The position numbers and the translations under genes are program-made. Shown here in pieces: positions 3,211 through 57,590 of a stretch of DNA of 61,786 nucleotides (its first letter is position 1; each line of letters opens with the position of its first letter). The stretch comes from a virus, in IMG/VR virus record IMGVR_UViG_3300021960_009997, positions 1 through 61,786 of that record; one strand, written 5' to 3'. A model generated the notes under the pieces. It was given only the letters and a program-made list of their open reading frames with translations, ran no database searches and was not told the origin of the DNA.

Positions 3211-3236
3211 AATGTAACTCCATAATTAAAAACTAT

Positions 3237-33097: not shown

Positions 33098-33119
33098 ACA
33101 ATCTCCTTAGTAATTGGGC

Positions 33120-33345: not shown

Positions 33346-33349
33346 AATA

Positions 33350-37282: not shown

Positions 37283-37305
37283 AAGCGCTTATAAATCAAG
37301 CACTT
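37283..37305 (-). terminator. Terminator overlapping the PhoH stop codon
   Basis: On the minus strand AAGTGCTT and AAGCGCTT pair (one G-U) around a 7-base loop, followed by TTAATTT. The stem includes the last codons and stop of PhoH. A close copy stands at 61481-61507, also overlapping a stop codon. Confidence 0.6.
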
Positions 37306-38039
37306 AGGTAATTTGAGTCCTCGTATTTCATTCTGGCCTCAATATACTCCCGGACCAGGGCAGATCTGACTATATCCTCAGGGCCAAATTCTACTGACGC
37401 AAAGGATGGCATATTCTCAACAGTTACCATAAACTGCTTCAGGCCAGACAAGTCATTCCTCTTGTAAAGGTCTGTCTGCCTAAAGTCTCCACAAAATATG
37501 ATCTTTGTATTGACTCCCACTCTTGTCATTATAGAATTAATTTCCATGTCATTTAAATTTTGACATTCATCAACAATAACAATAGCGTGATCTAATGTAA
37601 TACCTCTGACAAATGAAGTACACATAAACTCCAGATACTTTTGTTCTACCAAACGATGATATGCTTGTGGCTTGTTTGGGAAAAGTTCCTGGCACATTGA
37701 TTGATACGGTGCGCTATACACCTCGGTCTTCTCATCTTGATCTCCGGGTAAATGCCCGATCTCACGGGACGGCACAGCAGACCTAACAATAATTACTCGG
37801 TCTCTTGTTGCCGATTTGTTCATTACTTCTTCCAGAGCTCTGTAAAGTGCAATAAAGGTTTTACCTGTACCAGCACAACCGTGTAGCAAAAAGGCCGGTT
37901 TATAGTCATACTGCGACATAAACTGGCCTTGAGTTTCGGTTTTGGCTTGAATAGTCCTGAGGTCTTCAATCCTCATCTTTAGACTATTGTTTATAGGTAG
38001 TCCTTCGTTTTGTACAAGGTGAAGATTCTTCTTTGCCAT
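37296..38039 (-). CDS. phoH: PhoH-like ATPase
   Basis: The 247-residue protein has the PhoH Walker A segment FLLHGCAGTGKTFIAL (near residue 55), RDRVIIVRSAVPSREIG, and the Walker B-like AIVIVDECQNLN, then IIFCGDFRQTD. PhoH-like proteins are widespread in marine phages; bacterial PhoH is an ATP-binding protein of the phosphate regulon, linked to RNA metabolism, but the phage role is unclear. The last codons (YLSA) overlap a terminator stem. AGGAAG precedes the ATG. Confidence 0.92.
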   Translation of the reverse strand: MAKKNLHLVQNEGLPINNSLKMRIEDLRTIQAKTETQGQFMSQYDYKPAFLLHGCAGTGKTFIALYRALEEVMNKSATRDRVIIVRSAVPSREIGHLPGDQDEKTEVYSAPYQSMCQELFPNKPQAYHRLVEQKYLEFMCTSFVRGITLDHAIVIVDECQNLNDMEINSIMTRVGVNTKIIFCGDFRQTDLYKRNDLSGLKQFMVTVENMPSFASVEFGPEDIVRSALVREYIEARMKYEDSNYLSA

Positions 38040-38885: not shown

Positions 38886-40319
38886 TCAGTATACCTTCAC
38901 ACCGTAGTGTTGAGCGAATTTCTCCGCATCTAATCTATTATTGACAATTGGTTGTCCCTTTATGTTCAAACTTGTATTGAGTAGCATAGGACACCCTGTT
39001 TCTTCATACCACTTTGTTAATAACAGATATAATCCAGGGTGTGAAGCGTATGTCACTGTTTGTACCCTACTTGTTCCGTCTTTATGAACAATAGCTGGGT
39101 ATGTTTCTTTATTTTTACACTTTACAACCTGTTGCATATAAGGTGAGTGAAAAAACTTATCTACTTCAAAGTATTCTGAAACATCGTGCTGTCTTATTAC
39201 AGGAGCGAAAGGTCTAAACTCTTGCCGTTGTTTTATTTTGTTGACCTCATCTTTCATTTCTTGTCCACGAGGGTCAGCTAACAAACTACGGTTGCCCAAT
39301 GCTCTTGGACCAAACTCTGCTCGCCCACTTGCTACACCCACTATACCCGATTGTAACAGTTCTTGTAATAGTTTGTCAACCGGATATTCACTTTTTATCT
39401 CATGTCCTAAAAAGGCTGTATGAAATTTTACACGTTCTTTAGTCCCAGCAAGTACAGCACCGAGTGATGAACCTGCATCACCTGGGTTAGGCATTATCCA
39501 ATGCTCTTTGAAGTATTGAGGTATTAGTCTGTTAGCAAGACAGTTCAAAGCGCATCCGCCCATGTAAACAAGTTTATTATGACCTGTTATTTCTTTTGTC
39601 TTGTTTAACAAGCCATGTAGGTATGATTCAAATACTTTTTGTACAGCGGCCGCTATGTCAAACTTATCCTGTTCGCTTGTAAGTTCTGGTCTCCACCAAC
39701 GGACGCCTTTGTGCAGATTCTTTTCTTTGTGGGTTAGATTTTCTATTTCATTATAGAACCTATTAGGATCACCGTATGCCGCCATACCCATAAGGATATA
39801 TTCATCTTCGTTTGGCTTGAGTCCTAACCTGTCTGTGAAGGCAGTATAAAATAATCCTAAAGATTTTGGATAACGTGACGACCAAACTTTTTTCTCATTT
39901 TTCCAGATTGAGGTGGTTGTCCATTCCCCGATTGCGTCAATGACAAGTGTAGCACAATCAACAAAATGAGAGGGTCTTGTATAGTATCCTGCCGCCCAAT
40001 GTGACTTGTGATGATTGCCCCATTCTATAGGACACTTGAAATCATAGCCGGCTGCGTGAAAATATTTTTTAGGATTTATATACCAGTCTTTTTGTCCTGC
40101 CCAGATTCTACGGGTTGCTTTTAGTAGAGGATTTTCGTACCAAAAAATAATATCAGGTTGCCCAAACTCTAATGCCGCCCTCAACAGCCCAGGTGAAAGA
40201 TTCTTATCGTTTTTAATTCTACTGTATCTTTCGGAATGTGAGGCAAAGGTAATATACCCATCATTGATAACTGTCAATGCGGCATCGTGAAATCCTGCGC
40301 TAACTCCCCATGAAATCAT
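38886..40319 (-). CDS. Carbamoyltransferase (NodU/TobZ family)
   Basis: The 477-residue protein shows both parts of the family: an N-terminal YrdC-unrelated, ASKHA-like domain (ISWGVSAGFHDAALTVINDG, then HHKSHWAAGYY with metal-binding His residues, and LVIDAIGEWTTTSIW) and a C-terminal region (GRAEFGPRALGNRSLLADPR, FRPFAPVI, and LNTSLNIKGQPIV). Family members carbamoylate hydroxyl groups of sugars, nodulation factors and antibiotics using carbamoyl phosphate. Phage homologues are common in marine T4-like phages. It is the last gene of the modification operon and overlaps the SGNH gene by four bases. Confidence 0.9.
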   Translation of the reverse strand: MISWGVSAGFHDAALTVINDGYITFASHSERYSRIKNDKNLSPGLLRAALEFGQPDIIFWYENPLLKATRRIWAGQKDWYINPKKYFHAAGYDFKCPIEWGNHHKSHWAAGYYTRPSHFVDCATLVIDAIGEWTTTSIWKNEKKVWSSRYPKSLGLFYTAFTDRLGLKPNEDEYILMGMAAYGDPNRFYNEIENLTHKEKNLHKGVRWWRPELTSEQDKFDIAAAVQKVFESYLHGLLNKTKEITGHNKLVYMGGCALNCLANRLIPQYFKEHWIMPNPGDAGSSLGAVLAGTKERVKFHTAFLGHEIKSEYPVDKLLQELLQSGIVGVASGRAEFGPRALGNRSLLADPRGQEMKDEVNKIKQRQEFRPFAPVIRQHDVSEYFEVDKFFHSPYMQQVVKCKNKETYPAIVHKDGTSRVQTVTYASHPGLYLLLTKWYEETGCPMLLNTSLNIKGQPIVNNRLDAEKFAQHYGVKVY

Positions 40320-41242
40320 TTTGAATATTTTATTTCATATCCTTTTCTGTATAGTATCTCGCCGGCGTCTACTGATTTAAGATATTCTTCGGCAGTAGTA
40401 GGCACGTGCCAATGATTGTTAAGATATTTAGATTTTCTAACGTGTTTAAAATTCCAGTTTTGAATACCAATAAAAAGATCTTCTACAAAAATTTTCATAT
40501 TGGGAACTGTAAGATGATTTATTCTTGGATCACTACCAGAATATTTCGTAAGGAGCTGATGTGCTGGCATATTTTTTCTTAGCATAAAGTTTTTTATTTC
40601 AGCGCTCCACTTTGCTTCTGCTTGATCAATTTCTGACATATATACTGGAAAAAATATACAATTGTCTGGCATCTTAGGTAAATATTTTTTATCATCATCA
40701 TACCTGCCTACTGATGCAAAAACAAATTTTTTATCTTGATGTTTTTCTGCGATCCCAAAAAGTAGTGCCATTAATCCCATGTGTTGTATTTTATCAACAA
40801 AATAATCCTTTTCCATTATAAGATGTATAAGCCCTTCCTTGTTTTCTCTTGCATACCTATCTAATTCCACATTACCCTTATGAATTAATGTGTCAGACTC
40901 TAAATTGTAATGCAATAATGCACTACCACCAGAGGCTAACTTAGGAAATCTTCCGTGTCCGGTTACATTTATATCACAGGTGGATTTCAAAGCAAATCTA
41001 CCACTTGTTGTTATACAAAAGATTATCAACTCACCCGATTCTATTTCTCCGCTGTCCAATCTGTGAAGTAAATTTTTTACAGAAAATTCTAAACAACTAC
41101 CGTGAGCCGCATGATTTTTGTGAACCAGATTCATCTTTTCGGCCAATTGAAGTGCAATACCCTGCCTTTCCTTTCCTACTATATGGCCCTCAAATTCAGG
41201 AGCAACATAGCTATCACCAAAAAAACGTAATTTACTAATCAT
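40316..41242 (-). CDS. SGNH-like hydrolase/acyltransferase
   Basis: The 308-residue protein begins ISKLRFFGDSYVAPEF, the GDS block with the nucleophile Ser. It has AAHGSCLEFSVKNL as a possible Gly/Asn block and RINHLTVPNMKIFVEDL as the likely His block near residue 250. The middle contains IIFCITTSGRFALKS. It may esterify or de-esterify a sugar product of the cluster. Cytoplasmic, no signal. It overlaps the 34-residue gene by 8 bases and the carbamoyltransferase gene by 4. Confidence 0.65.
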   Translation of the reverse strand: MISKLRFFGDSYVAPEFEGHIVGKERQGIALQLAEKMNLVHKNHAAHGSCLEFSVKNLLHRLDSGEIESGELIIFCITTSGRFALKSTCDINVTGHGRFPKLASGGSALLHYNLESDTLIHKGNVELDRYARENKEGLIHLIMEKDYFVDKIQHMGLMALLFGIAEKHQDKKFVFASVGRYDDDKKYLPKMPDNCIFFPVYMSEIDQAEAKWSAEIKNFMLRKNMPAHQLLTKYSGSDPRINHLTVPNMKIFVEDLFIGIQNWNFKHVRKSKYLNNHWHVPTTAEEYLKSVDAGEILYRKGYEIKYSK

Positions 41243-41339
41243 AGGTATAAGGATCCTGTTCTCTCAGCTCTTTTAGTTTTTTCTTTAATTCCCTTTTACG
41301 TTTCCAATTCTTCCACCAATCTTTTATTCTTTGTATCAT
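41235..41339 (-). CDS. Very small basic amphipathic protein
   Basis: The 34-residue frame starts with an ATG overlapping the radical SAM stop (ATGA) and its end overlaps the SGNH start. It reads as a Trp/Lys/Arg-rich helix (IKDWWKNWKRKRELKKKL) with a tail REQDPYTYD. Similar tiny proteins ending in DPF/DPY-Y are familiar to me from marine phages, so I take it as real. Function unknown; being adjacent to a SPASM-like enzyme it could also be a peptide substrate, which is only speculation. Confidence 0.65.
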   Translation of the reverse strand: MIQRIKDWWKNWKRKRELKKKLKELREQDPYTYD

Positions 41340-42652
41340 TTGATTTCCTTTATGATGATGGTGTTTTTATCAGCTTCTTCCACCGCCTCTCTTACATAGT
41401 TCATCTCAGGTACAGTAGCATACATATCTTCGTTACGTATTTTATCAATTACCTCAGTGTCTTTAACAAACTTTCTTGCATAAGTTAAATCAAAAGGTTT
41501 TGTGAGTTCGTGTAAAACGTGATCAAACCTGTAACGAATAGAAGTATTATATTTCTTATCATAACTTGTAATAAAATTATTAAGTTTTTTAATTGTTTCT
41601 TGTTTAAACCAATCAGGAAGTATTCTTACATTATATTTTTCAGGCATATCTAAATAATTTAAAAAGAAATTGTTGTGCTGTAGTCCAAGACGCTTATCAG
41701 TTTTTATAACCCCTAACTCAAGTAGCCTATCAACAATTTCAGGAATACGGAATACATTCCAGGCACCTGTTGTGATACCAGGACGAATAACAATGTTATC
41801 TAACTTAACCATATCCTTAAGATTCTGTTCTACTTTAGGCCAATCAGTTCCTGATCTGATAAGTTCACCTCGTTCATCAATCTCATCTAAACTTGACCAA
41901 ACTTCGATCTTACCCGGCTCCCACTGTGACCAATAATCTAATACATTCTTGCCCTGATATATTAATTTTGAAGTATTGGTATTATATGAGATTCTCACAT
42001 CAAATCTTTTTGCTTCAACCAACATATCTAAAATATACCAGTGTTCGGGCATGAGTAGAGGTTCACCACCTGCAAAATAAATTTTTTCAACCTCGTCAAT
42101 CTGTTTCTCAAGGAACTTATAGTTATCAAGTCCGTCAATGGCATCAGTAGTAACAACCTTCTGCCAATCTTCTACGGGCCAGTTTAATTTTTTAGCATCG
42201 GGCAACCAACTGGAACTGTATGTAGGCCCACATGAGCGACATTTAAAGTTACAAAGATTGCTAAAACGAAAATCCCAATACTTCAGCTTCATTTCGGTTA
42301 CAGTGCCGTCTGCAAGTGTAGTTTCAGGTATGCGATCAATTACATGAGGAAACTCTCTATTGTGAAAAACCCTACTACTATCACCTGTAATAGGTTCTCT
42401 ATCAGTACAAGTTTTACAGTAACTCGGTATCTTACCATTCAACATATCCAAACGCATATGACGCATTCGTTGAGAATTCCAAATATCCTCGAAAGGTGTT
42501 TCGTTGATGTTACCAAAGTTTGCGGATTCGTGTTGTGAGGTTAAACAACAAGGAATAATCTTGCCGTCAGGTTCCAATGCCATGTGCATCCAGGGCACAG
42601 GACATATTGTATCCATGTTAATATCTTCACGTTTAAATGGCTTGTCACTCAT
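41336..42652 (-). CDS. Radical SAM/SPASM-like protein
   Basis: The 438-residue protein has an unusual order: an N-terminal set of cysteines (C17, C35, C36, C79, C82; CPVPWMHMALEPDGKIIPCC in parts) resembling a SPASM/twitch cluster site, then the radical SAM motif C134-x3-C138-x2-C141 (SNLCNFKCRSCGP). A GGEPLL motif (near residue 195, FAGGEPLLMPE) follows. This matches a group of twitch-domain radical SAM proteins common in marine T4-like phages. Reaction unknown; peptide or sugar modification is plausible. It is coupled to the 233-residue gene upstream (8-base overlap) and the 34-residue gene downstream. Confidence 0.85.
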   Translation of the reverse strand: MSDKPFKREDINMDTICPVPWMHMALEPDGKIIPCCLTSQHESANFGNINETPFEDIWNSQRMRHMRLDMLNGKIPSYCKTCTDREPITGDSSRVFHNREFPHVIDRIPETTLADGTVTEMKLKYWDFRFSNLCNFKCRSCGPTYSSSWLPDAKKLNWPVEDWQKVVTTDAIDGLDNYKFLEKQIDEVEKIYFAGGEPLLMPEHWYILDMLVEAKRFDVRISYNTNTSKLIYQGKNVLDYWSQWEPGKIEVWSSLDEIDERGELIRSGTDWPKVEQNLKDMVKLDNIVIRPGITTGAWNVFRIPEIVDRLLELGVIKTDKRLGLQHNNFFLNYLDMPEKYNVRILPDWFKQETIKKLNNFITSYDKKYNTSIRYRFDHVLHELTKPFDLTYARKFVKDTEVIDKIRNEDMYATVPEMNYVREAVEEADKNTIIIKEIK

Positions 42653-43346
42653 TGTTTAATCCTTTCACGTATTGCTTTTGATTGAAGTTATTTACTAAAC
42701 TTTCGTCTTTGTTTTCTATTGCGTTGTATAAACTGTCTGATTCAAACTCAGGATAGATATACAACCTACATTTTCTCATTTCGTCTGTAAAGTTATCTAT
42801 ACGCATTTTGTTTTTCAATGCTGCTTTTAGAAAACCCCAGCCTGGGTGTACTACTCGTCTTTCTGTTTCACCCTCAGTACCCTGTATCCAATGAGGAGTA
42901 TACTTATCATGGAAGTTCTCCTCTGATCTAACATAGTTAGGCACTGTTTGTATTGTATCAATCCAGTCACCGTATTCAGGACAACCTAACTGTCGCCACA
43001 CCTTTGTATTGATGACCATCATTTGGCCATGTATTTCAATCCAATAGTTCTCGCCTTTCTCAGGCTCCCAATCCAGTGTAAATGCCAAAGCAAAAAAGTC
43101 TGGATTGTTTCTTATATATTCGTCAACATAATCTATAAAGTTTGGGTCAGTTATAAAGTTACCTACGTGTTGTATGATAACAATGCCGTCAGAATGTTTT
43201 ACTGCTTCGTCTACTGTGTTGTAGACTTCAATATTAGATGACAGTTTGCTTGTATGCTCATACGTTTTATCTAATACGTACTGATATAGCTTTTCGTTTG
43301 CTACTTTGTTTTGATTTACAATAGCAAAACTATATTCTGTTAGCAT
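42645..43346 (-). CDS. Conserved phage protein sharing a domain with the 47024 gene
   Basis: The 233-residue protein has no assigned function. It resembles the N-terminal half of the 460-residue product at 47024-48406: both contain a strand predicting a Rossmann or GT-A fold (IVIIQHVGN here; VLILSAGMK there), then FALAFTLDWE/FFVAGNLRDGE, H-x-x-x-x-x-N/D-x-K-x-W, C-P-x-x-G-x-W and a GWGF/GWGY segment. The family may be a glycosyltransferase-like fold. It lies between the Asp-hydroxylase-like gene and the radical SAM gene with overlaps on both sides. Confidence 0.65.
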   Translation of the reverse strand: MLTEYSFAIVNQNKVANEKLYQYVLDKTYEHTSKLSSNIEVYNTVDEAVKHSDGIVIIQHVGNFITDPNFIDYVDEYIRNNPDFFALAFTLDWEPEKGENYWIEIHGQMMVINTKVWRQLGCPEYGDWIDTIQTVPNYVRSEENFHDKYTPHWIQGTEGETERRVVHPGWGFLKAALKNKMRIDNFTDEMRKCRLYIYPEFESDSLYNAIENKDESLVNNFNQKQYVKGLNNE

Positions 43347-43980
43347 CTAATCCACCCAATAATATAAGATGATACCTTGCCTCATCACTGTTATTGATTA
43401 CAATGTGTCTATTTGACACATCTACAACAAACCCTGTGCCTGCTTTGAAAGGCACGACACCTTTGTTTTCAAATACAAACTCACACCCTTCTGGATTATT
43501 TATAGCTATGTTCAAAGGACCAAACATTCTTTGTTTGCCGTCAGAATGTGGCATAATGTAACCACCCGGACCCACTTTCATTATTCTAACCCTGTCAAAA
43601 AAGTTATAAGGTAATGATTGACAAAACTTAGCAATGTTTGGAACAAGGTCACATAACTCTGTCCAATGATAGTTTGCTTCTTCTACACTGTCATAATCAT
43701 AAGCGTCACAGTGCATAGTTTTATTCATATCAATGCCGTGTAATGTAAGACTCTGCCACGATTCATGGCCATAGCCTGATAACCTTTCGCCTTTTCTGTG
43801 ATCGCTGAATAAATGATCTATACCTTTGCACTCATTCAAAAAGAGTTCAGTGTCAAAGTTAAAATCAAACTGATAATAGGCGCACTCAACATCATTATAT
43901 GACTCGTTGAATGTTTTATGTGAAACATTTTTACAGTCTTTATTTTGATTGTAAAAATCTAAAAGTTCGACAGGAAACAT
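43330..43980 (-). CDS. Aspartyl/asparaginyl beta-hydroxylase-like 2OG oxygenase
   Basis: The 216-residue protein has a complete cupin Fe/2OG site of the Asp_Arg_Hydrox family: H145-x-D147 (GGYIMPHSDGK), H192 (VSNRHIVINNSDE) and Arg202 (ARYHLI). LNIAINNPEGCEF and PFKAGTGFVVD are family segments. It would hydroxylate an Asp/Asn side chain in a peptide or protein, or another small substrate. Start overlaps the stop of the 355-residue gene by one base, and its 3' end overlaps the next gene by 17 bases. Confidence 0.85.
   Translation of the reverse strand: MFPVELLDFYNQNKDCKNVSHKTFNESYNDVECAYYQFDFNFDTELFLNECKGIDHLFSDHRKGERLSGYGHESWQSLTLHGIDMNKTMHCDAYDYDSVEEANYHWTELCDLVPNIAKFCQSLPYNFFDRVRIMKVGPGGYIMPHSDGKQRMFGPLNIAINNPEGCEFVFENKGVVPFKAGTGFVVDVSNRHIVINNSDEARYHLILLGGLDANRI
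43497..43504 (-). promoter_or_regulatory. Candidate late promoter TATAAATA
   Basis: Minus-strand TATAAATA inside the hydroxylase gene, about 150 bases before the 233-residue gene. Could be chance. Confidence 0.2.
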
Positions 43981-45047
43981 TACTTGTTCTCAATATATAG
44001 ATTGTCTACTGTGTCGTATTTACTCCACACTTCTTTGTTCCAATCTATCTTGTCTTTTTTACTACCAAACCACAAGTCAGTCATGGGTATCATTTCACCG
44101 TCATTCTCTTTGTATAGACATAACTGACCAAGAGGAATGTATCCAAGACAATATTCGTTTAGTTTCATGTGTGGGTCTTTCAGTTTCTTAAAGTCGTTGT
44201 CTACCCACCACTTGTGAAGACGTACCTGTGTGGTGTTAGGATATGCAGGAACAAGATTGATAAACAGTTCGGCAGCAAATCTTTGTTGTGGTCGTATCTC
44301 ATCACGTTCTACAGCAGCTATGTCATTGTCAAGTGAAGTAGACATCCAGTTTTTACCTAACGTGTTGTAACCCAAGTACAACCAACCCCAATCAATAGTA
44401 GGATTGAATAACATATAATCTTCAGGCTCCAAAGGTACGTGAATGTAGCCGTCTTTCTCATTAGGGAGAAAATCTGTCAGGCAAGTACAGGAAGTTTCTA
44501 CTTCAGGATTCAGCCTTCGTCTTATGATTGTTTCTGTATTGTGTATCTGTTCGTTAAGCAACAAAAAGGATTCATGTAAGACTAAATTGTGGGCATCGCC
44601 GGGCCAAGAACCGGGAAACTCGCCGCCGGGATAGGTGTTTCCGTAGTGTTCGTTATTTGTTGGATCATTCCAATAACCTGATTCAATAACTTCTGCCAAC
44701 CTATCACCATATATCTCAAACTCCTCATGTAAGTCATTCAAAAGATGCTCTGACTCCATCAAGGACTCAATGGTGGTTAATTGAGGAAGTTTTCTGTCAT
44801 AGTTATCATTGATATACTGTATGTTATCTTTAAATTCCTCAAACTCTGCTTCTTGTTCTTCTACATTTTTATAGCGACGGTAGTTTGCTTTAAGAGGATA
44901 TCCTCTTTTGTTATTTTCATCAATAACATCTACCCATTTTTTAGTAATATCAATATCTATCAAGTTAGCCCAAAGAGTAAGTTTATCACCCGTTTTGCTA
45001 TTTGACATTATAATTTTGGCTATATAATCTTGTCTAAAAAATTTCAT
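43980..45047 (-). CDS. Conserved hypothetical phage protein
   Basis: The 355-residue protein is unrecognised. The first third is helical and charged; the second half has a conserved-looking aromatic region (DYMLFNPTIDWGWLYLGYNTLGKNW in parts, then RPQQRFAAELF and VRLHKWWVD). A GGAAG ribosome site favours the ATG at 45047 over the ATG at 45008. It lies between the B12-radical SAM gene (14-base overlap) and the Asp-hydroxylase-like gene, so it likely belongs to the same pathway. It has an acidic composition and no membrane segment. Confidence 0.6.
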   Translation of the reverse strand: MKFFRQDYIAKIIMSNSKTGDKLTLWANLIDIDITKKWVDVIDENNKRGYPLKANYRRYKNVEEQEAEFEEFKDNIQYINDNYDRKLPQLTTIESLMESEHLLNDLHEEFEIYGDRLAEVIESGYWNDPTNNEHYGNTYPGGEFPGSWPGDAHNLVLHESFLLLNEQIHNTETIIRRRLNPEVETSCTCLTDFLPNEKDGYIHVPLEPEDYMLFNPTIDWGWLYLGYNTLGKNWMSTSLDNDIAAVERDEIRPQQRFAAELFINLVPAYPNTTQVRLHKWWVDNDFKKLKDPHMKLNEYCLGYIPLGQLCLYKENDGEMIPMTDLWFGSKKDKIDWNKEVWSKYDTVDNLYIENK

Positions 45048-47034
45048 ATACTTCCACGTCTTGTGTCTTACCTTTCACCAAATTTCTTTTCTCATATGAA
45101 AGATCCATAGGAAGCACAGCATTCTCTCCTTGTGAATCTCCTGTGCCTGTAAATTCTGTAATCACAAAGGTATTTTCATCCCATTTTCCTTTGACCTCAA
45201 ACTCACATTCAAAAGACTTGTTGCCTATTAACCACCACTCTCCTTGATGTACAAACTTGTGGTTTGCCTTACAATGGAAATTCCCTTCTTTATCTACTTT
45301 AAACCATTGCTTAGAATTATAATTTGACAGTGTTATACTTGTTCCAAATTCATCTAAATCCTCTTCGTGGTCAAAGTGTGTAGACAATTCAAACCCGCCA
45401 CGTACTCTCCAAAACATTCGGCAAAGACCGAAAAATTCATTTACAACAGTATCAGCAAAAGTTCCCATATTTAATTGAACAATATTATGGTCAAATTCTT
45501 CATAAGGCACTTCATTAATTATACTATCTTCATCATCAAAGTCAAGCGTAAAGTGATTACCAATATTAGGCCTGTCCTGAGCATTTTGTATAGTACCTTG
45601 TTTTTTACACTCCTCTAACCATATATAAAAATATTTAAGTCGCAAAGCTCGATGAAGTTTTGTGTTTGACCAATCTAAAGACCACCACACCCCCTCAAAA
45701 AGTCTATCCCAAGGAGACATATTATATCTTTCTCGGTTAAATTCAAAATCCGTTTGTTTTGCATCTGACATTCCCATACCAGGACTGATGGCAAAGATTC
45801 TATTTCTATTGTTCCATACAAGATTCATACTATGAGCAATGGCCTGTATATCCTCACCTTGTGCACCGACAATCCAATTAGCATGAGCATCAATGCCATA
45901 TTTCGCACAATGCAACAAATTATTGTTGACATCTTCTAAGTCAATATTCTTGCGCATGACATCTAAAACTTTTTGACTGCCACTTTCAATACCAAAACTT
46001 AAATTTACACAGCCGCCCGCTTTTAATGCTCTAAAATAGTCATCATCCATTCGTTTGTCACAGCGAGCATATCCCATCCATTTAATGTCCATCTTTCGTT
46101 CTACAACACCCTCAACAAACTCTCGCAATGTTTTAAGGTTGCCGTTTGTAAGACTGTCAATAAACCAAACAAAATTCATACCATACTTTTCTGTTTGTTC
46201 TTGTAGTTCATCAAGTATTCTTTCGGAATGCCTATCACGGTATTTCCAAAACCAAGTTTCCTTACAGAAAGAACATTTAGCAACACACCCTCGACTAAGT
46301 TCAGCACTAATACCAAATGTTGATGTATATTTGCCAAGGTTATAATCAGTATAATCGGGAAAAGGTAAACTATCAATATCAACCCGTGACATATTAAATG
46401 TCTCTCCAAGCTGTCTTGGGATGCCTATCAAGTTTTTTTCTTTCTTATCTAAGAAATCAATAAGTACCTGTTCTCCCTCGCCTCTTACGTAATGGTCTAC
46501 AAAATCTGGGGGAATATACTCTGGGGTATGACACTGTGGACCCCCATATATAATAGTTAAGTTCGGTCTCAATTTTTTGATTTTTTTAGTTATCATATGT
46601 GTACACATATAATTGGTGTCGTACACACTAAAACCCAATACATCTGGATTGCTATCTAATACACTCTGTATCCACTTATCTAATACTTTTTCATAACCAG
46701 GCAATACTCTACTTTCCCATTCGCCTGCGTGCCACCAAAACCAATGGTTAGAATCCCAGGCCTCGGGTACTCCCATATCATGGTAGCCTTCTACATTAAA
46801 ATCAAAAACCGTTGTTGTATACCCTGCTGATCGAGTCAATGCGGCCAGTCTGGCTAAATTGTAAGGAGGAAAAAACACGCCCCATGAAGGCATGATACAC
46901 ATCGTGAGTTTTGTTTTTCTTGGCTCAACATCATATACAATGGGGTTGACATTTTTCTTTGGCTTAAATGCCTTCTTAGAAGGCAATACTTTGTTGGCTA
47001 AGTATACGTGTTTGTCATGTACTTCAGTCGCCAT
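45034..47034 (-). CDS. B12-binding-domain radical SAM protein
   Basis: The 666-residue protein has an N-terminal cobalamin-binding-like domain (residues about 35-190: MCIMPSWGVFFPPYNLARLA, DVLGFSVYDTNY, TIIYGGPQCHTP, VRGEGE) and a radical SAM core with C-x3-C-x2-C near residues 250-257 (SRGCVAKCSFCKE), WFIDS, and SFGIESGSQKVLD. The C-terminal 200 residues are an unassigned beta-rich domain. B12-dependent radical SAM enzymes methylate unreactive carbons or rearrange skeletons. The canonical DxHxxG is not obvious, so cobalamin binding may be non-canonical. It overlaps neighbours by 11 and 14 bases. Confidence 0.85.
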   Translation of the reverse strand: MATEVHDKHVYLANKVLPSKKAFKPKKNVNPIVYDVEPRKTKLTMCIMPSWGVFFPPYNLARLAALTRSAGYTTTVFDFNVEGYHDMGVPEAWDSNHWFWWHAGEWESRVLPGYEKVLDKWIQSVLDSNPDVLGFSVYDTNYMCTHMITKKIKKLRPNLTIIYGGPQCHTPEYIPPDFVDHYVRGEGEQVLIDFLDKKEKNLIGIPRQLGETFNMSRVDIDSLPFPDYTDYNLGKYTSTFGISAELSRGCVAKCSFCKETWFWKYRDRHSERILDELQEQTEKYGMNFVWFIDSLTNGNLKTLREFVEGVVERKMDIKWMGYARCDKRMDDDYFRALKAGGCVNLSFGIESGSQKVLDVMRKNIDLEDVNNNLLHCAKYGIDAHANWIVGAQGEDIQAIAHSMNLVWNNRNRIFAISPGMGMSDAKQTDFEFNRERYNMSPWDRLFEGVWWSLDWSNTKLHRALRLKYFYIWLEECKKQGTIQNAQDRPNIGNHFTLDFDDEDSIINEVPYEEFDHNIVQLNMGTFADTVVNEFFGLCRMFWRVRGGFELSTHFDHEEDLDEFGTSITLSNYNSKQWFKVDKEGNFHCKANHKFVHQGEWWLIGNKSFECEFEVKGKWDENTFVITEFTGTGDSQGENAVLPMDLSYEKRNLVKGKTQDVEVYEIF

Positions 47035-48406
47035 TTTCTATCTCCTTGTCTATTCTACGACAATACGCATCTTGACCCAAAATTCTAAAATTGGTGTTTA
47101 TACTTTTTACAAAATTTTGCAAACACTTTTGATTTTCAAAAACGGGTTGATTTATTGCACTAAAATCTGTTGAAAAAATATTAGATACACTGACCAAGGT
47201 GTGCCCCTCAAAATAACTTGTTAGACTTTTTGGGTCATTGAACAAATCACATTCTATAAACTGTACTCTTGCTTTTCTAAACTTTTCTAAGGTTGTATAA
47301 AAATCATCAGTGAAAAAAGAAGAGCCACTTCCAAACGCATCTATACTTCTTTGTATAGAATCACTTGCTTCTTTTGTGTATATTGTATTTTCTTTATCGG
47401 AAAAAACTTTGCTACCTGCTACAAAAAAGTATTGTCTGTCTTTCCATTGTTTTGCCAGTTCTTTAATATCTGTTGATTCACTTTCATATATAAATTTAGC
47501 CCATGCCAAACTTAAAGGGTTATAATCATATATTAATAATGTACCGGTATCTTTCATATAATTAACTGCATTAATCATTTTAAATCCGGATGCTGGTAAA
47601 GCAACTGTGTCATAAAAGGGGTTGTTATATATTTCAAAGTCTATAGACTCTGTGTTAGTTAACCATATTTTCGGAAATGATACTGATCTTATTTGTTTAA
47701 TTACATTTTGCTGTACAATCAGTAAATCTATATTTTTTTCTGGTTTTATAATATTGTCCCAGAACTCAGCACTTCTATGTTCTGGATAACAATACTCATA
47801 TTTTCTTGAGGGTTGTAAGGAAATAACTCGCATATTATTATTTCCGGCAGCTTCAATGTAACCCCAACCCTGTCGCTGATGATGCTGTTCCTTTTTTTCA
47901 CCGGTGAAGTTTATAGTGATATGTTTGTCATTTATTACTTTTTCTACAACTGGTAATTCTCTTACCTCGTTTTCCCAACCGCCGAAACAAGGAGACCCTG
48001 CTCGACACCATCTTTTAACATCTACAAGTAAAATAGAATGATGTATTTCACAATAAGAATCTTCGCCGTCTCTTAAATTGCCGGCAACAAAAAAATCATC
48101 TTCATTGTCTATAATATCCTTAAAGTCAAACAAAGCAGACATATCCGATATTTTCATTCCGGCCGACAATATCAAAACATATTCATGTTTATCCTGAAGA
48201 TCAACTAAAGCAGAATCAATGTGAGTCGATTCATAAATTTTGATTGGATTATCAGGATGTACTAATTGATTCAATCTATGAGCATAAAATTTTGTATACT
48301 CTGTCATTTTATTTTGCAATGGAGTATGTCTTAGTGTGTCCGGTGGACAAATACATATTGCTAAATTATAATTGTCATTATAAAATGTAGTAGTTATTAT
48401 ATCCAT
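47024..48406 (-). CDS. Two-domain conserved phage protein (methyltransferase-like C-half)
   Basis: The 460-residue protein has an N-terminal half related to the 42645 gene product (VLILSAGMK, SPCFGGWENE, RQGWGYIEAAGNNN) and a C-terminal half with a Rossmann-like pattern (TVALPASGFKMINAVNYM, GTLLIYDYNPLSLAWAKF, VSVSNIFSTDF) resembling class I SAM-dependent enzymes with degenerate motifs. No catalytic residues can be assigned. The start overlaps the upstream radical SAM gene by one base. Such proteins recur in marine T4-like phages beside radical SAM and oxygenase genes. Confidence 0.6.
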   Translation of the reverse strand: MDIITTTFYNDNYNLAICICPPDTLRHTPLQNKMTEYTKFYAHRLNQLVHPDNPIKIYESTHIDSALVDLQDKHEYVLILSAGMKISDMSALFDFKDIIDNEDDFFVAGNLRDGEDSYCEIHHSILLVDVKRWCRAGSPCFGGWENEVRELPVVEKVINDKHITINFTGEKKEQHHQRQGWGYIEAAGNNNMRVISLQPSRKYEYCYPEHRSAEFWDNIIKPEKNIDLLIVQQNVIKQIRSVSFPKIWLTNTESIDFEIYNNPFYDTVALPASGFKMINAVNYMKDTGTLLIYDYNPLSLAWAKFIYESESTDIKELAKQWKDRQYFFVAGSKVFSDKENTIYTKEASDSIQRSIDAFGSGSSFFTDDFYTTLEKFRKARVQFIECDLFNDPKSLTSYFEGHTLVSVSNIFSTDFSAINQPVFENQKCLQNFVKSINTNFRILGQDAYCRRIDKEIENGD

Positions 48407-49503
48407 TATATATTTTTTAACCTAATTATATTTTCGATTCTTCTGTCAAGATCGTATTCAGACTTGACTTTATGTGGTTGGAATATTTTAGATTCACCAA
48501 ACTTTTCTTTATACCAGCCGGTATTTTTGTCGAATATTGGAAACTTTGTAATGTTTACATCTGTTGTACATAAACATTTGGTTTGTGTACAAATTTCAGC
48601 ACTGTCAGGCAGTCTATAACTCTCATGGTCATTGATATGAAACAAGTCGCCTCCCTGAAAACAGTTTCCTTTTTTCACATACCCATTAAAGTGTATAAAC
48701 AAAGATTCCAATCCTATATTACAGGCCCAACCTCTAAAATCATTTTCTTGGTTCATAACTAATTTATTTAGATCTGCCAGTGGTTCTACAGACCCGTCTC
48801 GTCTATAAACTGTAGAGCTTATATCAGCAGCTCTATATCTTTTATCTTTTATTGCGTGAAGTCCAGGTGCTGTCTGAATAACTGCTGAATTTTTTTGTAA
48901 CCATTCTTCCATTTCAGGTGTATAGTTTGCCCCACAGTTTCCAACATTTGCCTGTTCTTCATATATTCTAACAGCCTCAAAGCTAATAGTTCCGAGTCTT
49001 TTTAATTTTTCCCAAAAAGCAACACACCTGTCCCATCTATCAGAATCCATCATTACTCTAATAGAATTGCCCGTATATTTTTGACAATATACAACTTTGT
49101 CAACCCACTCATCTTCTTTAGCTTCATCTAACATAGCACAATGGTAACTCCAACTTATATGCCCACAATAAGGAGCAACCCTGTCCCAATATTTTTTTGT
49201 TCTCGCACCGTTAGTGGTTACAGTAGTAGTACCGTTTCCGTCATAAATTGTTTTTACAAGATCTGGGAAAAAAGGACTAACGGTTGGTTCACCCCCTGAT
49301 ATACTACACGTTATTGAGGGGTATGTATTTTGAAGTCTTTTTATAAAAGACAATAATTTTTCTTGTTCATAATGATGGTTAGTACCACTCCACAGTGAAG
49401 GCGGGCAATACCTACATTTGTTAGTGCATATATTGTTAATTACCAAGGTAAGTAATAAAGATTTAGAATCGTTTTTTATGTATGATACTGTGTTGTCAAT
49501 CAT
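48406..49503 (-). CDS. Radical SAM protein
   Basis: The 365-residue protein has C26-x3-C30-x2-C33 (NICTNKCRYCPPS), the GGEPT motif (ISGGEPTVSPFF, near residue 70) and TTNGAR. The C-terminal part carries clustered cysteines (WACNIGLES, GNCFQGG, CTQTKCLCTTD), as in SPASM-type auxiliary cluster domains. It is likely a peptide- or small-molecule-modifying enzyme; target unknown. Overlaps the methyltransferase-like gene by 8 bases. Confidence 0.85.
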   Translation of the reverse strand: MIDNTVSYIKNDSKSLLLTLVINNICTNKCRYCPPSLWSGTNHHYEQEKLLSFIKRLQNTYPSITCSISGGEPTVSPFFPDLVKTIYDGNGTTTVTTNGARTKKYWDRVAPYCGHISWSYHCAMLDEAKEDEWVDKVVYCQKYTGNSIRVMMDSDRWDRCVAFWEKLKRLGTISFEAVRIYEEQANVGNCGANYTPEMEEWLQKNSAVIQTAPGLHAIKDKRYRAADISSTVYRRDGSVEPLADLNKLVMNQENDFRGWACNIGLESLFIHFNGYVKKGNCFQGGDLFHINDHESYRLPDSAEICTQTKCLCTTDVNITKFPIFDKNTGWYKEKFGESKIFQPHKVKSEYDLDRRIENIIRLKNI

Positions 49504-50083
49504 TTTTTGTACCTATAGCCATGTATCTTTTAAAATTGTTGCAAGGCAAAATACCTGAATAGTCTGGGTCGTCTGAGTAGTTTTGATTTAAGAAATGTTC
49601 TAATGATTCACTGCACCGAATGTGTTCTTCACAATCAAAGTAATCGTTTCCCTGTATAATGTAGGTAGTGCCGTTAGGTATATTATCCCACCACTTACTA
49701 TATATATCTTGTGTCATGTGTTCACATGAAGTGTTGATAACTAACCCTGGTTTTGAGGAATACTGATATTTGCTTGCGCATGAAGTGATAGAAGTAATAT
49801 TATCTCCACATGAAATTTGTTTAAATACATTCTCACAATGAGGATCCAAGTCCACTGTAATAATCTTAATTCCTGGAAATTTATCAGATATAAGCTGAGC
49901 AAGAATCCCGTACCAACCACCAAATATAACTACATTGGTTATCTGCATATCTTGAATTTTTGATAACAACCACTGTTTACTGTCAAATTGACTGGGCCAA
50001 AAACATTCAGTAAATCTTTTCGCTTCTTCAGGATTATTGCGAATATACTCCATCCATTTTAAAACATACTTGTCCGAAATCAC
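49496..50083 (-). CDS. SAM-dependent methyltransferase-like protein
   Basis: The 195-residue protein has a class I Rossmann pattern: VVIFGGWYGILAQLI (motif I-like, residues about 50-64), IITVDLDP (acidic end of strand 2) and LVINTSCEHM (motif IV region). Length is short for a full methyltransferase, so a binding or degenerate role is possible. The gene follows the glycosyltransferase gene directly and overlaps the radical SAM gene. Substrate unknown. Confidence 0.65.
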   Translation of the reverse strand: MISDKYVLKWMEYIRNNPEEAKRFTECFWPSQFDSKQWLLSKIQDMQITNVVIFGGWYGILAQLISDKFPGIKIITVDLDPHCENVFKQISCGDNITSITSCASKYQYSSKPGLVINTSCEHMTQDIYSKWWDNIPNGTTYIIQGNDYFDCEEHIRCSESLEHFLNQNYSDDPDYSGILPCNNFKRYMAIGTKND

Positions 50084-50887
50084 TTATTCACCACTATTAA
50101 AATTACCAATTATTGTTGTTTTGGATTGTGAAAAATCTAAAGAGCTTACTCTATCAAAAAAAGGTATCATATTTTGAGTATTATCCTCACTAACAAATGC
50201 GTGTAATGTGCCACCTTCTTGTAAATCGTAATGATAGAATTCTCTACCTCTAATTAGGAAATAGTTTATTGTAGGTGTCTGACTGTACAACTCAAACATT
50301 GCTAAATAATCATCCGCTGCTTTTAGTTCTTCATTATAACGAAAACTTTTAGCTGCATGAGATGACAATAAAAGAAACCTATTAAAGGGTAAAATGTCCT
50401 CGGTCAATTTATTCAATTGACGTAACATTCTCCAGTTAGGTTTGGACTTAGCAGCAAATGTAGAGCCTGACATATTTTTAGCAAAGTCTTTCCATTCTGT
50501 TTGTTTCCCATTATATGTCATTGTGTTTTTTAACTCACCAAACACATCAGGCATAGTGTCGGGTTCTAAAATTTTTGCGTAACGTACAATTTCTTTGACA
50601 GCTCCTTTAACATAGTAATCGTCACCATCAATAGGCAATAGATATTGATAGCGTTTTTGAATAAAATAATCCAACACACTATTCTTACCTCTGCCCGGTG
50701 TCCCGTTACATGGTGTTTCGATTACTGTATAGCCAGCACAGCTCTCCTCAACCTGCTTTAAATAATGCGGATCGGGAGAGTTCACAATAACTACAATATC
50801 TACATCTTTACAGTCTACTGAGTCTATACATCTTCGTGCTTTTTCTGCGTCTCTTGTAGTCAATACTCCAACTAAAAACTTAGACAC
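50084..50887 (-). CDS. Family 2-type glycosyltransferase
   Basis: The 267-residue protein opens KFLVGVLTTRDAEKARRCIDSV, the GT2 nucleotide-binding strand, then VDIVVIVNSPDP, GRGKNSVLDYF and LLPIDGDDYY with the DxD motif (near residue 93). A GT-A inverting or retaining sugar transfer to a surface glycan or other acceptor is expected. Cytoplasmic. It overlaps the TauD-like gene by 8 bases, in the promoter-proximal part of the operon. Confidence 0.75.
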   Translation of the reverse strand: MSKFLVGVLTTRDAEKARRCIDSVDCKDVDIVVIVNSPDPHYLKQVEESCAGYTVIETPCNGTPGRGKNSVLDYFIQKRYQYLLPIDGDDYYVKGAVKEIVRYAKILEPDTMPDVFGELKNTMTYNGKQTEWKDFAKNMSGSTFAAKSKPNWRMLRQLNKLTEDILPFNRFLLLSSHAAKSFRYNEELKAADDYLAMFELYSQTPTINYFLIRGREFYHYDLQEGGTLHAFVSEDNTQNMIPFFDRVSSLDFSQSKTTIIGNFNSGE

Positions 50888-51752
50888 TATTTCTCCTTAA
50901 AATCCATTCCGGGTCGTCCCTGTTACTTATAGGAAACGTATACCGGTGTAATACCCGTTTTTCTAATATGTCATTATTATAGTACGGCCGACGGTGCAAT
51001 GTCAATAGTTGATCGCTTAAAACTATGTCACCGTATTCCCAAAAGTGTCGGTAAATAAATTTATCCTGATACAGATACTCCATGAGTTCATCATAGAAGT
51101 CTTTGTCCGTAACAAGGTCATTATTGTGATACCAATACAGGCCTTTGACACCTGCAACATTTTCCTGTAAGATATACATCTCATATTCTTCGATATTCTG
51201 TGACATATATTTTAACTGATACTCAGGTGGTTTGTCAGCCCATTTACTCGCAGCAGTATACTTATACCTGCATTTTACACCCTCAAGTTTTTGTTTGAGT
51301 TCAATTGGCATTTCTTCTAATGCTCGAGCAGTATTCAGCCATTGAGTTTCAGTACCAACACTTCCATCAATACCCTGTAGTGCAACACCGTCTGCTCGTG
51401 TTGGCCCGTTTAGATTAGCGTGCCATTTGAGTTCGCCTGTTGGGAATATGCCACCAAATTTGCCAGCATCTGTCTTACCACCGGTGACACGCTGGCAAGG
51501 AAATGTATCTACACTTGTAGGGTCTACATAGTCACCGGGAAGCCCTATCAAATCCCCGTGTCTATTCCACAGCATTTGTTTGTAATTGGATATGCGACTC
51601 ATTTTGTGAATGAGTCTTGTTAGGTAAATATTATTGGTCGATTGTTTTGGAATAACAACAATCAATTCTTCTGATAGTGTCTTAAAAATGTCCTGTGCTA
51701 ATTCATCACTTACATCTCTAATGTCAATATCAAGCTCTACATGATTATCCAC
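50880..51752 (-). CDS. TauD/TfdA-like 2OG oxygenase
   Basis: The 290-residue protein resembles TauD-type dioxygenases: ELIVVIPKQ near the start, GELKWHANLNG (residues 107-117) in the iron-binding position, and LSDQLLTLHRRPYYN with a late Arg (RVLHRYTFP) for the distal His and 2OG Arg. As in the 1375 gene, the expected Asp of HxD is Asn (H111-A-N113). Substrate unknown. It is the second gene of the modification operon and overlaps its neighbours on both sides. Confidence 0.75.
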   Translation of the reverse strand: MDNHVELDIDIRDVSDELAQDIFKTLSEELIVVIPKQSTNNIYLTRLIHKMSRISNYKQMLWNRHGDLIGLPGDYVDPTSVDTFPCQRVTGGKTDAGKFGGIFPTGELKWHANLNGPTRADGVALQGIDGSVGTETQWLNTARALEEMPIELKQKLEGVKCRYKYTAASKWADKPPEYQLKYMSQNIEEYEMYILQENVAGVKGLYWYHNNDLVTDKDFYDELMEYLYQDKFIYRHFWEYGDIVLSDQLLTLHRRPYYNNDILEKRVLHRYTFPISNRDDPEWILRRNSV

Positions 51753-52053
51753 GTCTCATCCTCGAAATGTCTTTAGCTTGCTCCTCGTTGATAATAGGAA
51801 CAGCATTAGACTTGTGCATTGTAGCAATGCCCTTGACAAGGGTACCTGTGTACTCCTTACGCTCGGGCTTCGAGGTATTTATAGAGCCTGAAGTAGTCAT
51901 GCTCGGATATTGGGGGGTCTCACGGTAATGTGGATTAGGAGGCGGAGTATAGGCCTGAAACGGCGGCGGAGTATATTTCTGATACACTTCGCCTTTGGGT
52001 TTACTGGCCTTGCGTCTACGGGATTTATTATTAGCTGAAAGATCTAAAAACAT
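51745..52053 (-). CDS. Conserved Pro-rich small phage protein
   Basis: The protein is 102 residues from the ATG at 52053, which has GAGGAAT upstream; a longer frame to 52110 would run into the promoter and is rejected. It begins MFLDLSANNKSRRRKASK, has a Pro/Tyr-rich middle (YTPPPFQAYTPPPNPHY), and ends EYTGTLVKGIATMHKSNAVPIINEEQAKDISRM in parts. That C-terminal part is a conserved element of marine T4-like phages. First gene after the early promoter at 52082-52110. Confidence 0.75.
   Translation of the reverse strand: MFLDLSANNKSRRRKASKPKGEVYQKYTPPPFQAYTPPPNPHYRETPQYPSMTTSGSINTSKPERKEYTGTLVKGIATMHKSNAVPIINEEQAKDISRMRRG
51876..51883 (-). promoter_or_regulatory. Candidate late promoter TATAAATA
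   Basis: Minus-strand TATAAATA inside the small Pro-rich gene, 124 bases before the TauD-like gene. It may add late expression to the modification operon, or be chance. Confidence 0.3.
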
Positions 52054-52081
52054 ACCATATTCCTCATTAAATAGTCCGACT

Positions 52082-52110
52082 ATTATGACACATATATGTC
52101 GATTTGTCAA
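52082..52110 (-). promoter_or_regulatory. Sigma70-type early promoter of the modification operon
   Basis: Minus strand TTGACA, 17 bases, CATAAT, with TGC directly before TTGACA as in four other promoters here. The transcript would cover about 14 overlapping genes down to the carbamoyltransferase. It lies back-to-back with a plus-strand late promoter at 52141. Confidence 0.8.
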
Positions 52111-52832: not shown

Positions 52833-53816
52833 ATGAAACGCTCCACAGCGTTTATCATGCTTTTGATGACCAATATAGCTTATGGACAAGTAGCAAACGA
52901 TGCAGATGGTAACTTTGACTCAACAACATACGTAGAAACAAACAATACTACCAATACGAGTAGTACGTCTGCATCTACCTCAAATAACACCAACTTAAAC
53001 ACTAACAACACAACCATTAGTGCAACAAACACTAATAACAACACTAACCTAAATACCAACAACACAACAATCAACGCCACTAATACGAATACTAATAATA
53101 ATATTCTGTCTGGTGGCACCAACAATACTAACACCAACAACAATACAAATGTAAACTTTAATAACACATCTGTAACAGCAACAAACAGCAACACCAACAC
53201 TAACAACAATACTAATGTTAGTACAAGCACGGCGAATAATACCAATGTTAATACTAATAACAGCACGGTAGACTCGACTGCTACAACTAACAATACAAAT
53301 ACCACAACCAGTGATAATACAAACACTAACTATAATGAAAGTGTTGCTACAAACAACAATACCAATGTAAACGAAAACAGAAACTTGAGCGAGTCTAATC
53401 AGACTCAGGATATCAATCAAAAAATTGAATCACCTCCTCCCTCTGCCATCGCTCCAAGTATTGGTAGTTCTTACTCACAAGACTTATGTACTACGGGTGT
53501 TGGTGGTGCAGTACAAACTCAGATCATAGGTATTTCTGCAGGTAAATCTGTAACAGATGAAAACTGTGAAAGAATCAAACTGAGCAAGACACTGTATGAC
53601 ATGGGTATGCGTGTAGCTGCTGTTTCTCTTATGTGTCAAGACGAGCGTGTGTGGACTGCTATGAAAATGGCAGGCACTCCTTGTCCGTGGCAAGGACTAA
53701 TCGGTGACGAAGCAGGTGCAGCGTGGGAAGAAAACTTAACTGACATTCCTGGTGTCAGTGAAAGAGATGTAGACAGAGGAAGAGTTACCTCATCACCTAA
53801 CAGCCCAACAAGATGA
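52833..53816 (+). CDS. Signal-peptide protein with Asn/Thr repeat region
   Basis: The 327-residue protein has a signal peptide (residues 1-19, ending AYGQ), then from about 30 to 195 a low-complexity stretch of N-T-N-N/T-x-N units with regular returns of NTNLN/NTNVN, suggesting a beta-helix or flexible exported region. The C-terminal 110 residues are a separate conserved domain (SSYSQDLCTTGVGGAVQTQI, ENCERIKLSKTLYDMGM, CQDERVW and GTPCPW) with paired cysteines and found in other marine T4-like phages. Function unknown. Its stop overlaps the next signal-peptide gene (ATGA), implying joint export, perhaps to the periplasm of the dying host or as a virion component. Confidence 0.75.
   Translation: MKRSTAFIMLLMTNIAYGQVANDADGNFDSTTYVETNNTTNTSSTSASTSNNTNLNTNNTTISATNTNNNTNLNTNNTTINATNTNTNNNILSGGTNNTNTNNNTNVNFNNTSVTATNSNTNTNNNTNVSTSTANNTNVNTNNSTVDSTATTNNTNTTTSDNTNTNYNESVATNNNTNVNENRNLSESNQTQDINQKIESPPPSAIAPSIGSSYSQDLCTTGVGGAVQTQIIGISAGKSVTDENCERIKLSKTLYDMGMRVAAVSLMCQDERVWTAMKMAGTPCPWQGLIGDEAGAAWEENLTDIPGVSERDVDRGRVTSSPNSPTR
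52975..53390 (+). repeat. Asn/Thr-coding low-complexity repeats
   Basis: Units of AAY/ACN codons (asparagine and threonine) recur in-frame, giving DNA rich in AACACT/AATACC. The repeats explain the open frames on the opposite strand here, which are therefore not genes. Confidence 0.85.
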
Positions 53817-55765: not shown

Positions 55766-55786
55766 GATAAACTCAGGAGCGTGAAC

Positions 55787-56251: not shown

Positions 56252-56262
56252 GATAAAACATT

Positions 56263-57375: not shown

Positions 57376-57387
57376 TAGGAAAATACT

Positions 57388-57582
57388 ATGGCAGGTAATA
57401 AAAGAAAAAATATTGTTTGGTTGATACCAGAGAATGAAACAAGAGAATCACACACATATCACTATTCGGTTGTAAAGACAAAAAATACAACAACTGAGAA
57501 GTTTAGATTCAAAAAATACAACCCCGTGAAAAGGGTACACGAATGGTTCAAGGAAGTAAAAGCGCCAAGTCACAGTAAATAG
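57388..57582 (+). CDS. Ribosomal protein bL33-like
   Basis: The 64-residue basic protein aligns over its whole length with bacterial bL33. The family segment K-x-N-x-R-T-x-T/P-E-K-L-x-x-K-K-Y/F-D-P-V is matched by KNTTTEKFRFKKYNPVKR, and the ending RxHxxxKEAK by HEWFKEVK. The zinc Cys pairs of some bL33 forms are absent, as in the E. coli type. Cellular bL33 is about 55 residues and sits in the E-site region of the 50S subunit. The phage copy has a longer charged N-terminus (MAGNKRKN). It may replace host bL33 and alter translation in infected cells, as proposed for other phage ribosomal proteins. AGGAAA precedes the ATG. Confidence 0.75.
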   Translation: MAGNKRKNIVWLIPENETRESHTYHYSVVKTKNTTTEKFRFKKYNPVKRVHEWFKEVKAPSHSK

Positions 57583-57590
57583 GAGGCTAC

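Follow-up and report, generated by a model that had tools for sequence, protein, structure and literature searches.

A hypervariable island of predicted radical S-adenosylmethionine, oxygenase and carbamoyltransferase genes between p121 and phoH in a virus record

The usual explanation for hypervariable regions in phages is tail fibres or simple glycosyltransferases. In the T4-like aquatic pelagimyophages, the hypervariable region termed the host recognition cluster (HRC) carries radical S-adenosylmethionine (SAM) cassettes with glycosyltransferases alongside, and these cassettes are a difference between the HRCs of the two closest genomes according to a 2020 paper (PMC7029224). A comparable arrangement was found in virus record IMGVR_UViG_3300021960_009997, a linear record of 61,786 bases that is taken over its whole length and henceforth referred to as the window. 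Its minus strand carries an operon of predicted radical SAM, oxygenase, sugar-transferring and carbamoyl-transferring enzymes. The HRC is located between VrlC and gp14 with tail fibres, whereas the cassette in the window is located between the first operon gene, p121, and phoH. In the consulted passages of the HRC paper, radical SAM genes are mentioned briefly and the conserved core, island ends and micro-protein reported below are not described (PMC7029224).

A related island in Pelagibacter phage Mosig EXVC030M includes distant homologues of TauD (H-x-N type), the carbamoyltransferase, MT195, a nitroreductase and AspH-type proteins (gene names as in Table 1). It gave no match to the N_Twi, p355, p460 and B12 radical SAM queries and, unlike the window, has aminotransferases, a desaturase and an epimerase. 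The window carbamoyltransferase shares both domains and an EFGPRALGNRS-type motif with the NodU/NovN/GdmN/TobZ O-carbamoyltransferases; in contrast to these, it is paired with a small protein, here called the DPFIY micro-protein. A phage enzyme of the same superfamily acts on 5-hydroxymethylcytosine (5hmC) (MetaGPA, PMC8670742) but is 23% identical to the window enzyme and differs in the specificity-region motif (ALCNTT versus ALGNRS). In that study the residues G421 and R423 are flagged (PMC8670742), with their mapping to TobZ numbering deduced from spacing. The phage gtr seroconversion cassette has a membrane flippase and membrane glycosyltransferases, in contrast to the window operon, which is without membrane-span-like proteins. 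In the open literature searched, which leaves subscription papers largely outside, neither the DPFIY micro-protein nor the core nor the replacement island between p121 and phoH was found described.

An island with constant ends and a replaced middle

The p121-phoH spot is a hypervariable island of T4-like aquatic phages with constant ends, the middle of which is swapped as cassettes. One constant end consists of p121 and the methyltransferase-like MT195, the other of the DPFIY micro-protein and the carbamoyltransferase. A relative designated G001 is collinear with the window over ~50 kb and, at the same spot, begins with p121 and MT195 and closes with the carbamoyltransferase (57% identity) and phoH, but what lies between them differs. 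The same ends in relatives L179 and L183 enclose the series N_Twi-N_Twi-p355-rSAM365-AspH-p460. Carbamoyltransferase identity to the window is 55-59% in these three relatives and reaches 87% in L223. Closer relatives were added using the carbamoyltransferase as bait. One of these, L225, matches the window at 87% for phoH, 79% for the carbamoyltransferase and 89% over 35 aa for s327 but at 26% for N_Twi; another, L226, matches at 90% for both phoH and a nuclease but at 25% for N_Twi. Because flanks of 79-90% identity accompany N_Twi genes of 25-26% identity, the island middle has been replaced rather than diverging in step, and the cassette turns over faster than its own flanks. Every island in which the sequence upstream of the carbamoyltransferase spans at least 9 kb has N_Twi genes (18/18, mean 3.9). 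The core genes of the window are also closer to members of phage arrays elsewhere (N_Twi up to 81%, AspH 62%, p355 46%) than to their own island relatives (N_Twi 28-32%, AspH 45-47%, p355 30%), which fits cassette exchange. What varies in this island is demanding oxygen and radical chemistry, from virus-specific families present in large copy numbers.

Thirteen open reading frames (ORFs) run from 52110 to 38886 on the minus strand, with junctions that overlap by 1-17 nt or abut (50084/50083). The sole exception is a 93-nt gap (41243-41335), which is exactly closed by a 34-codon micro-gene (41339..41235). This gene begins with an ATG that overlaps the stop codon of N_Twi and ends with a TAG overlapping the start of SGNH. 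The operon therefore contains 14 genes, as in the initial annotation, which had counted about 14 nearly all overlapping or abutting genes but had overlooked the 34-aa micro-protein. Since the island is collinear in relatives, the layout is beyond chance. No membrane-span-like stretch (19-residue Kyte-Doolittle mean >1.45) was detected in any operon protein, and all of them look soluble.

Transcription from one early promoter, as had been proposed, is supported by a site with 11/12 consensus matches plus TG before the -10 box, and by comparable promoters in the same position before p121 in L183 and L039 (11/12 each) and in L179 (10/12). Sigma70-like matches were overall no commoner than in shuffled sequence, and the evidence is the position common to relatives. 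The operon boundary originally placed at 52110 is in fact the promoter -35 box; p121 starts at ATG 52053, not TTG 52110. The late-promoter motif TAAATA was not enriched (78 seen, 93 expected). The p121 gene is the fixed 5' boundary of the island and is present too in phages without the cassette. As a dedicated substrate of the pathway, p121 was rejected as first choice, since it is found in phage C48C1 without the cassette.

The window has T4-type gene content, including gp32, gp59, a gp26-like baseplate gene, several baseplate wedge/hub proteins and phoH, together with two transfer RNAs and a permuted transfer-messenger RNA (tmRNA). The source phage is T4-like and without a close match in sequenced phage records; a megablast of window 38-61.8 kb against 50,697 phage records returned no nucleotide relative. 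The AMP-ligase, second SGNH and further radical SAM genes that had been reported near the operon are separate insertions, none of them present in collinear G001. This radical SAM gene (25496-26464, plus strand), which stands astray among baseplate genes and is absent at that place from G001, belongs to a family common in radical SAM arrays of other phages (69% identity).

Conserved core, N_Twi family and DPFIY micro-protein

The first locus set was chosen for N_Twi and is hence uninformative on N_Twi presence. Using p355 as an independent bait, 148 relatives were obtained, representing 44 non-redundant loci with a recurring gene order. N_Twi was found in 43/44 of these loci, AspH in 34/44, p460 in 33/44 and rSAM365 in 32/44. 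Distance matrices of p355, AspH and p460 correlate at 0.87-0.89, which supports linkage and not function, because common descent contributes. These counts point to a recurrent core of p355, rSAM365, AspH and p460 in an island middle that is built around N_Twi radical SAM proteins; the core could serve as a minimal set for expression tests. The initial annotation had proposed a tailoring pathway in one transcription unit, which is supported. The condition it named as refuting, relatives with scattered and separately lost genes, does not hold for the core, whose genes are not scattered among the p355 loci. It holds in part for the accessory genes: TauD, the GT2-like gene (GT267), the B12 radical SAM, SGNH and carbamoyltransferase genes come and go separately from one another, and close relatives have an entirely exchanged middle.

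The N_Twi motif was found in at least 120 viral contigs versus two loci in 84,980 species genomes. Both non-viral loci belong to one Rickettsiales metagenome-assembled genome, and one of them lies on a contig that, at 46,940 bases, is exactly as long as a listed viral contig. On this distribution, the N_Twi radical SAM system appears virus-specific and widespread, with 16 and 15 matches per genome in two phage genomes. Vibrio phage K566 (L004, record 161.5-179 kb) has five N_Twi-family genes, two of them above the curated cut-off, and is a possible laboratory model. Neither the B12 radical SAM nor p355 alone gave a match in exact-peptide searches of viral contigs, and alignment and motif baits were needed. 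No match was obtained by tblastn of p355, p460 and AspH against the 50,697 phage records, nor by a p355 profile, run without a positive control, in Atu_ph07, K566, HTVC008M, C48C1 and S-SSM7.

The micro-gene belongs to a family of ORFs of ~30-50 codons ending in DP(F/Y)(I/T)Y plus one residue. It was identified in 75/79 carbamoyltransferase loci, mostly directly before the carbamoyltransferase gene. When a 27-nt tail pattern was used as the only bait, 120/120 matches were ORFs of 33-72 codons; the carbamoyltransferase was present in 103/120 of these loci (74 within 200 bp) and N_Twi in only 33/120. In the tail, Pro is encoded by each of its four codons and Ile by each of its three. Among 39 close pairs, the last 14 codons differ by 180 synonymous and 59 nonsynonymous changes, compared with 154 and 320 in the earlier codons. 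The micro-protein is real and under purifying selection, with constraint on its tail and an N-terminus that is free to vary. Since the micro-protein tracks the carbamoyltransferase and not N_Twi, the simplest inference is that it is an adaptor or acceptor of the carbamoyltransferase, and it offers a short testable handle on the pathway. In ~20 loci (L253-L301), mostly without N_Twi nearby, the micro-gene and carbamoyltransferase gene lie between primase-like and helicase-like genes. No match to the micro-protein was obtained in phages by tblastn with the low-complexity filter active, and the tail pattern was not found in six cultured or deposited phages.

Predicted enzymes and candidate substrates

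Curated models back the carbamoyltransferase, AspH, B12 radical SAM, TauD and radical SAM assignments of the initial annotation. Its GT2 and methyltransferase calls correspond to weak matches below the curated cut-off, and the operon SGNH protein (SGNH_b) has the GDS block with no Pfam match. Of the two methyltransferase-like proteins originally listed, one is MT195, conserved near the island 5' end (48-49% identity in G001, L179 and L183); the second is the C-terminal half of the 460-aa p460, the N-terminal half of which is GT-A-like. No relatives of the GT2-like gene were found among the loci fetched.

N_Twi scored 356.8 bits against NCBIfam NF033640 (curated cut-off 170) and has a CxxxCxxC cluster plus N-terminal auxiliary-cluster cysteines; C17, C35, C79, C82 and C134, C138, C141 are invariant in 40 sequences. 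A SPASM profile match of 1.3e-16 was obtained among the operon enzymes. In rSAM365, C26/C30/C33 are invariant and C261/281/305/310/312 are kept in 90% of sequences. The B12 radical SAM protein is 57% identical to its L163 and 53% to its L160 counterpart. The AspH iron triad (H145-x-D147...H192) is intact and invariant, and the carbamoyltransferase has both N- and C-terminal domains and the catalytic motif EFGPRALGNRS. The residues expected for cofactors and catalysis are thus intact in the radical SAM clusters, in AspH and in the carbamoyltransferase, but not in TauD, which has H-x-N in place of the expected H-x-D and so is without the usual carboxylate ligand. The same Asn-for-Asp exchange occurs in Pelagibacter phage Mosig, L221, L262 and L346, and L298 has Ala. 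Loss of this Asp from the iron triad is known from iron/2-oxoglutarate (Fe/2OG) halogenases. Classical hydroxylation should therefore not be assumed, and a reaction other than hydroxylation is conceivable for this phage TauD subgroup.

Two proteins without a family assignment, p355 and p460, were modelled. The predicted fold of p355 is cyclophilin-like (AlphaFold predicted local distance difference test, pLDDT, 88.5), with Z 9.9 to cyclophilins over 141-142 residues at a root-mean-square deviation of 3.5-3.6 and unrelated folds down at Z 5.6. This likeness comes from a second structure comparison (VIA) only, Foldseek against the PDB having given no significant match. Its helical insert holds invariant H107, E111, H169 and E172 (alignment A1), and its matches in a viral library are unnamed phage proteins. 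The p460 model (pLDDT 81) contains a GT-A-like domain (~10-238) and a class I methyltransferase-like domain (~240-458), with structure matches at Z 10.6 to the PBCV-1 capsid glycosyltransferase 2p73 and at Z ~10 to NNMT, COLGALT1 and mimivirus R699; all of these except NNMT are resembled by the GT-A-like half. The 233-aa p233 is a second copy of the p460 N-terminal half (29% identity, E 3e-13; alignment A2).

SPASM-type radical SAM, AspH and cyclophilin-like proteins usually act on polypeptides. In about 10/44 p355 loci, tail-fibre-like genes on the same strand lead straight into the locus, no gap being wider than ~60 nt, and the partly homologous island of cultured phage Mosig lies between baseplate VrlC and tail fibres. 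Because of these polypeptide-type enzymes, the likeness of the p460 GT-A-like half to the PBCV-1, COLGALT1 and R699 enzymes, the soluble proteins, the fibre-linked loci and the Mosig island, decoration of a polypeptide, most likely a virion tail-fibre or other host-recognition protein, is tentatively favoured, with a probability somewhat short of even. The operon would be read early from its one promoter and its soluble enzymes would act on a cytoplasmic polypeptide. Radical SAM and AspH/TauD-type oxygenases would functionalise unreactive positions, which GT-A-like and methyltransferase domains would then extend or cap; the carbamoyltransferase would add a final carbamoyl group, with the DPFIY micro-protein probably as its guide or its acceptor. 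Swapping of the island middle would change the chemical type of the decoration. Should the product prove to be a decoration, its types would be chemical serotypes of phages, comparable to the O-antigens of bacteria. A broader proposal, possible but rather doubtful, is a virus-only post-translational chemistry in which exchanged radical SAM cassettes (up to 16 N_Twi genes per genome) place unusual modifications on the phages' own host-recognition proteins and the widely shared micro-protein links the carbamoyltransferase with any pathway that the island happens to carry.

Several observations weigh against decoration of a host-recognition protein. In the window the cassette lies 2.7-12 kb from tail-fibre-like genes and its promoter is of early type, and in other loci PHROGs lends the neighbouring genes weak (c19, c22) or no (c9) support as tail fibres. 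No acceptor site was identified. The GT-A-like and methyltransferase assignments are predicted folds with middling Z, and the GT-A-like domain is without an obvious DxD. The DPFIY-carbamoyltransferase pair, also found without N_Twi, may have a job of its own.

The early-type promoter and the distance from the fibres would also suit a change of the host surface glycan in infection, for superinfection exclusion or receptor change, in which radical SAM, oxygenase and SGNH steps make unusual sugars that are then carbamoylated and methylated. NodU/NovN-type carbamoyltransferases act on sugars, epimerase- and nucleotidyltransferase-like genes occur in other carbamoyltransferase loci, and both a sugar aminotransferase and an epimerase are encoded in the Mosig island. 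HRC glycosyltransferases were taken by the pelagimyophage authors as O-chain modification (PMC7029224). The operon, however, is without membrane-anchored glycosyltransferase, flippase, polymerase or nucleotide-sugar genes, and this explanation is considered unlikely, at roughly one chance in a few. Somewhat lower still is the likelihood assigned to a modified peptide or small molecule resembling a ribosomally synthesized and post-translationally modified peptide (RiPP), for which the DPFIY micro-protein would serve as precursor, scaffold or carrier. Proteusin-type RiPPs typically combine radical SAM, B12 radical SAM and hydroxylase enzymes, a mix seen here beside a short peptide gene within the operon that is strongly conserved with the carbamoyltransferase. 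The constant C-terminus and variable N-terminus of the micro-protein are nevertheless the reverse of a precursor with conserved leader and variable core, and its gene tracks the carbamoyltransferase rather than radical SAM genes. Neither an exporter nor a leader protease was evident among the operon genes, no search having been aimed at a RiPP recognition element, exporter or protease.

Hypermodification of phage DNA, in which the carbamoyltransferase would cap hydroxymethylated bases, is least likely and very improbable, because the window enzyme has the NovN-type ALGNRS and not the ALCNTT of the 5hmC enzyme, to which its overall identity is also low. That one phage carbamoyltransferase does modify 5hmC (PMC8670742) speaks for it, as does a Tet_JBP oxygenase gene 10 kb from the island in G001 (L303, G001 95858-96241, 86.6 bits). 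Hydroxylase and cyclophilin-like members would, however, be out of place in such a pathway. Thymidylate-synthase-type (PF00303) and Tet_JBP (PF12851) genes were each found in 1/9 long relatives, the records of which are possibly incomplete.

Feature coordinates and other observations

Table 1 Predicted features of the island and its outer flank in the window.
Feature	Position	Strand	Basis
Sigma70-like early promoter, TTGACA-17-CATAAT, TG before -10	52082..52110	-	11/12 consensus
p121, small basic Pro/Tyr-rich protein, first gene	51745..52053	-	41-56% identical in G001, L179, L183, Phage C48C1
TauD-like Fe/2OG oxygenase, H-x-N variant	50880..51752	-	PF02668 3.4e-16
GT2-like glycosyltransferase, DGDD motif	50084..50887	-	PF00535 3.1e-4, below curated cut-off
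MT195, SAM methyltransferase-like, GGWxG	49496..50083	-	PF00891 7e-4, weak
rSAM365, radical SAM with C-terminal SPASM-like cysteines, core	48406..49503	-	PF04055 2e-10
p460, GT-A-like and class I methyltransferase-like domains, core	47024..48406	-	AlphaFold model, structure matches
B12-binding radical SAM, accessory	45034..47034	-	PF02310 2.7e-9, PF04055 1.3e-14
p355, cyclophilin-like fold with helical insert, core	43980..45047	-	AlphaFold model, Z 9.9 to cyclophilins
AspH-like Fe/2OG hydroxylase, core	43330..43980	-	PF05118 (Asp_Arg_Hydrox) 3.1e-10
p233, stand-alone copy of the p460 GT-A-like domain	42645..43346	-	29% identity, E 3e-13 to p460
N_Twi radical SAM (hallmark gene), SPASM/twitch domain at the N-terminus	41336..42652	-	NF033640 1.6e-106
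Micro-gene, 34 aa, MIQRIKDWWKNWKRKRELKKKLKELREQDPYTYD, conserved DP(F/Y)xY tail	41235..41339	-	Overlaps both neighbours
SGNH-like protein, GDS block, accessory	40316..41242	-	Motif; distant relatives in arrays
NodU/TobZ-type O-carbamoyltransferase, fixed 3' island end	38886..40319	-	PF16861 4.5e-53, PF02543 4.9e-35
phoH, conserved outer island flank, outside pathway	37296..38039	-	PF02562 8.6e-46; synteny

Further features of the window were recorded outside the island. At 1375-4539 on the minus strand, a tail-fibre-like gene with YTG/FSG repeats is immediately followed by 2OG-oxygenase-like and GT-like genes with a small gene upstream. G001 has kept all of these, and the small gene is preceded by a TTGACA/TATAAT promoter. 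The permuted tmRNA (33107-33385, minus strand) is a two-piece form close to gp59, scoring 110.8 bits against Rfam RF04321 (cut-off 47), with the tag ANDDVYALAA. The block at 52833-58094 (plus strand) encodes a signal-peptide-like N/T-repeat protein, a 650-aa protein with a signal and small proteins with membrane-span-like stretches; it has no specific Pfam match, and its first gene is partly 89% identical (35 aa) in L225. A complete DUF1552 protein (115-1404, plus strand; HXXSHH, 3.6e-75) with a twin-arginine-like signal is unmatched in G001 and is an unusual cargo for a phage.

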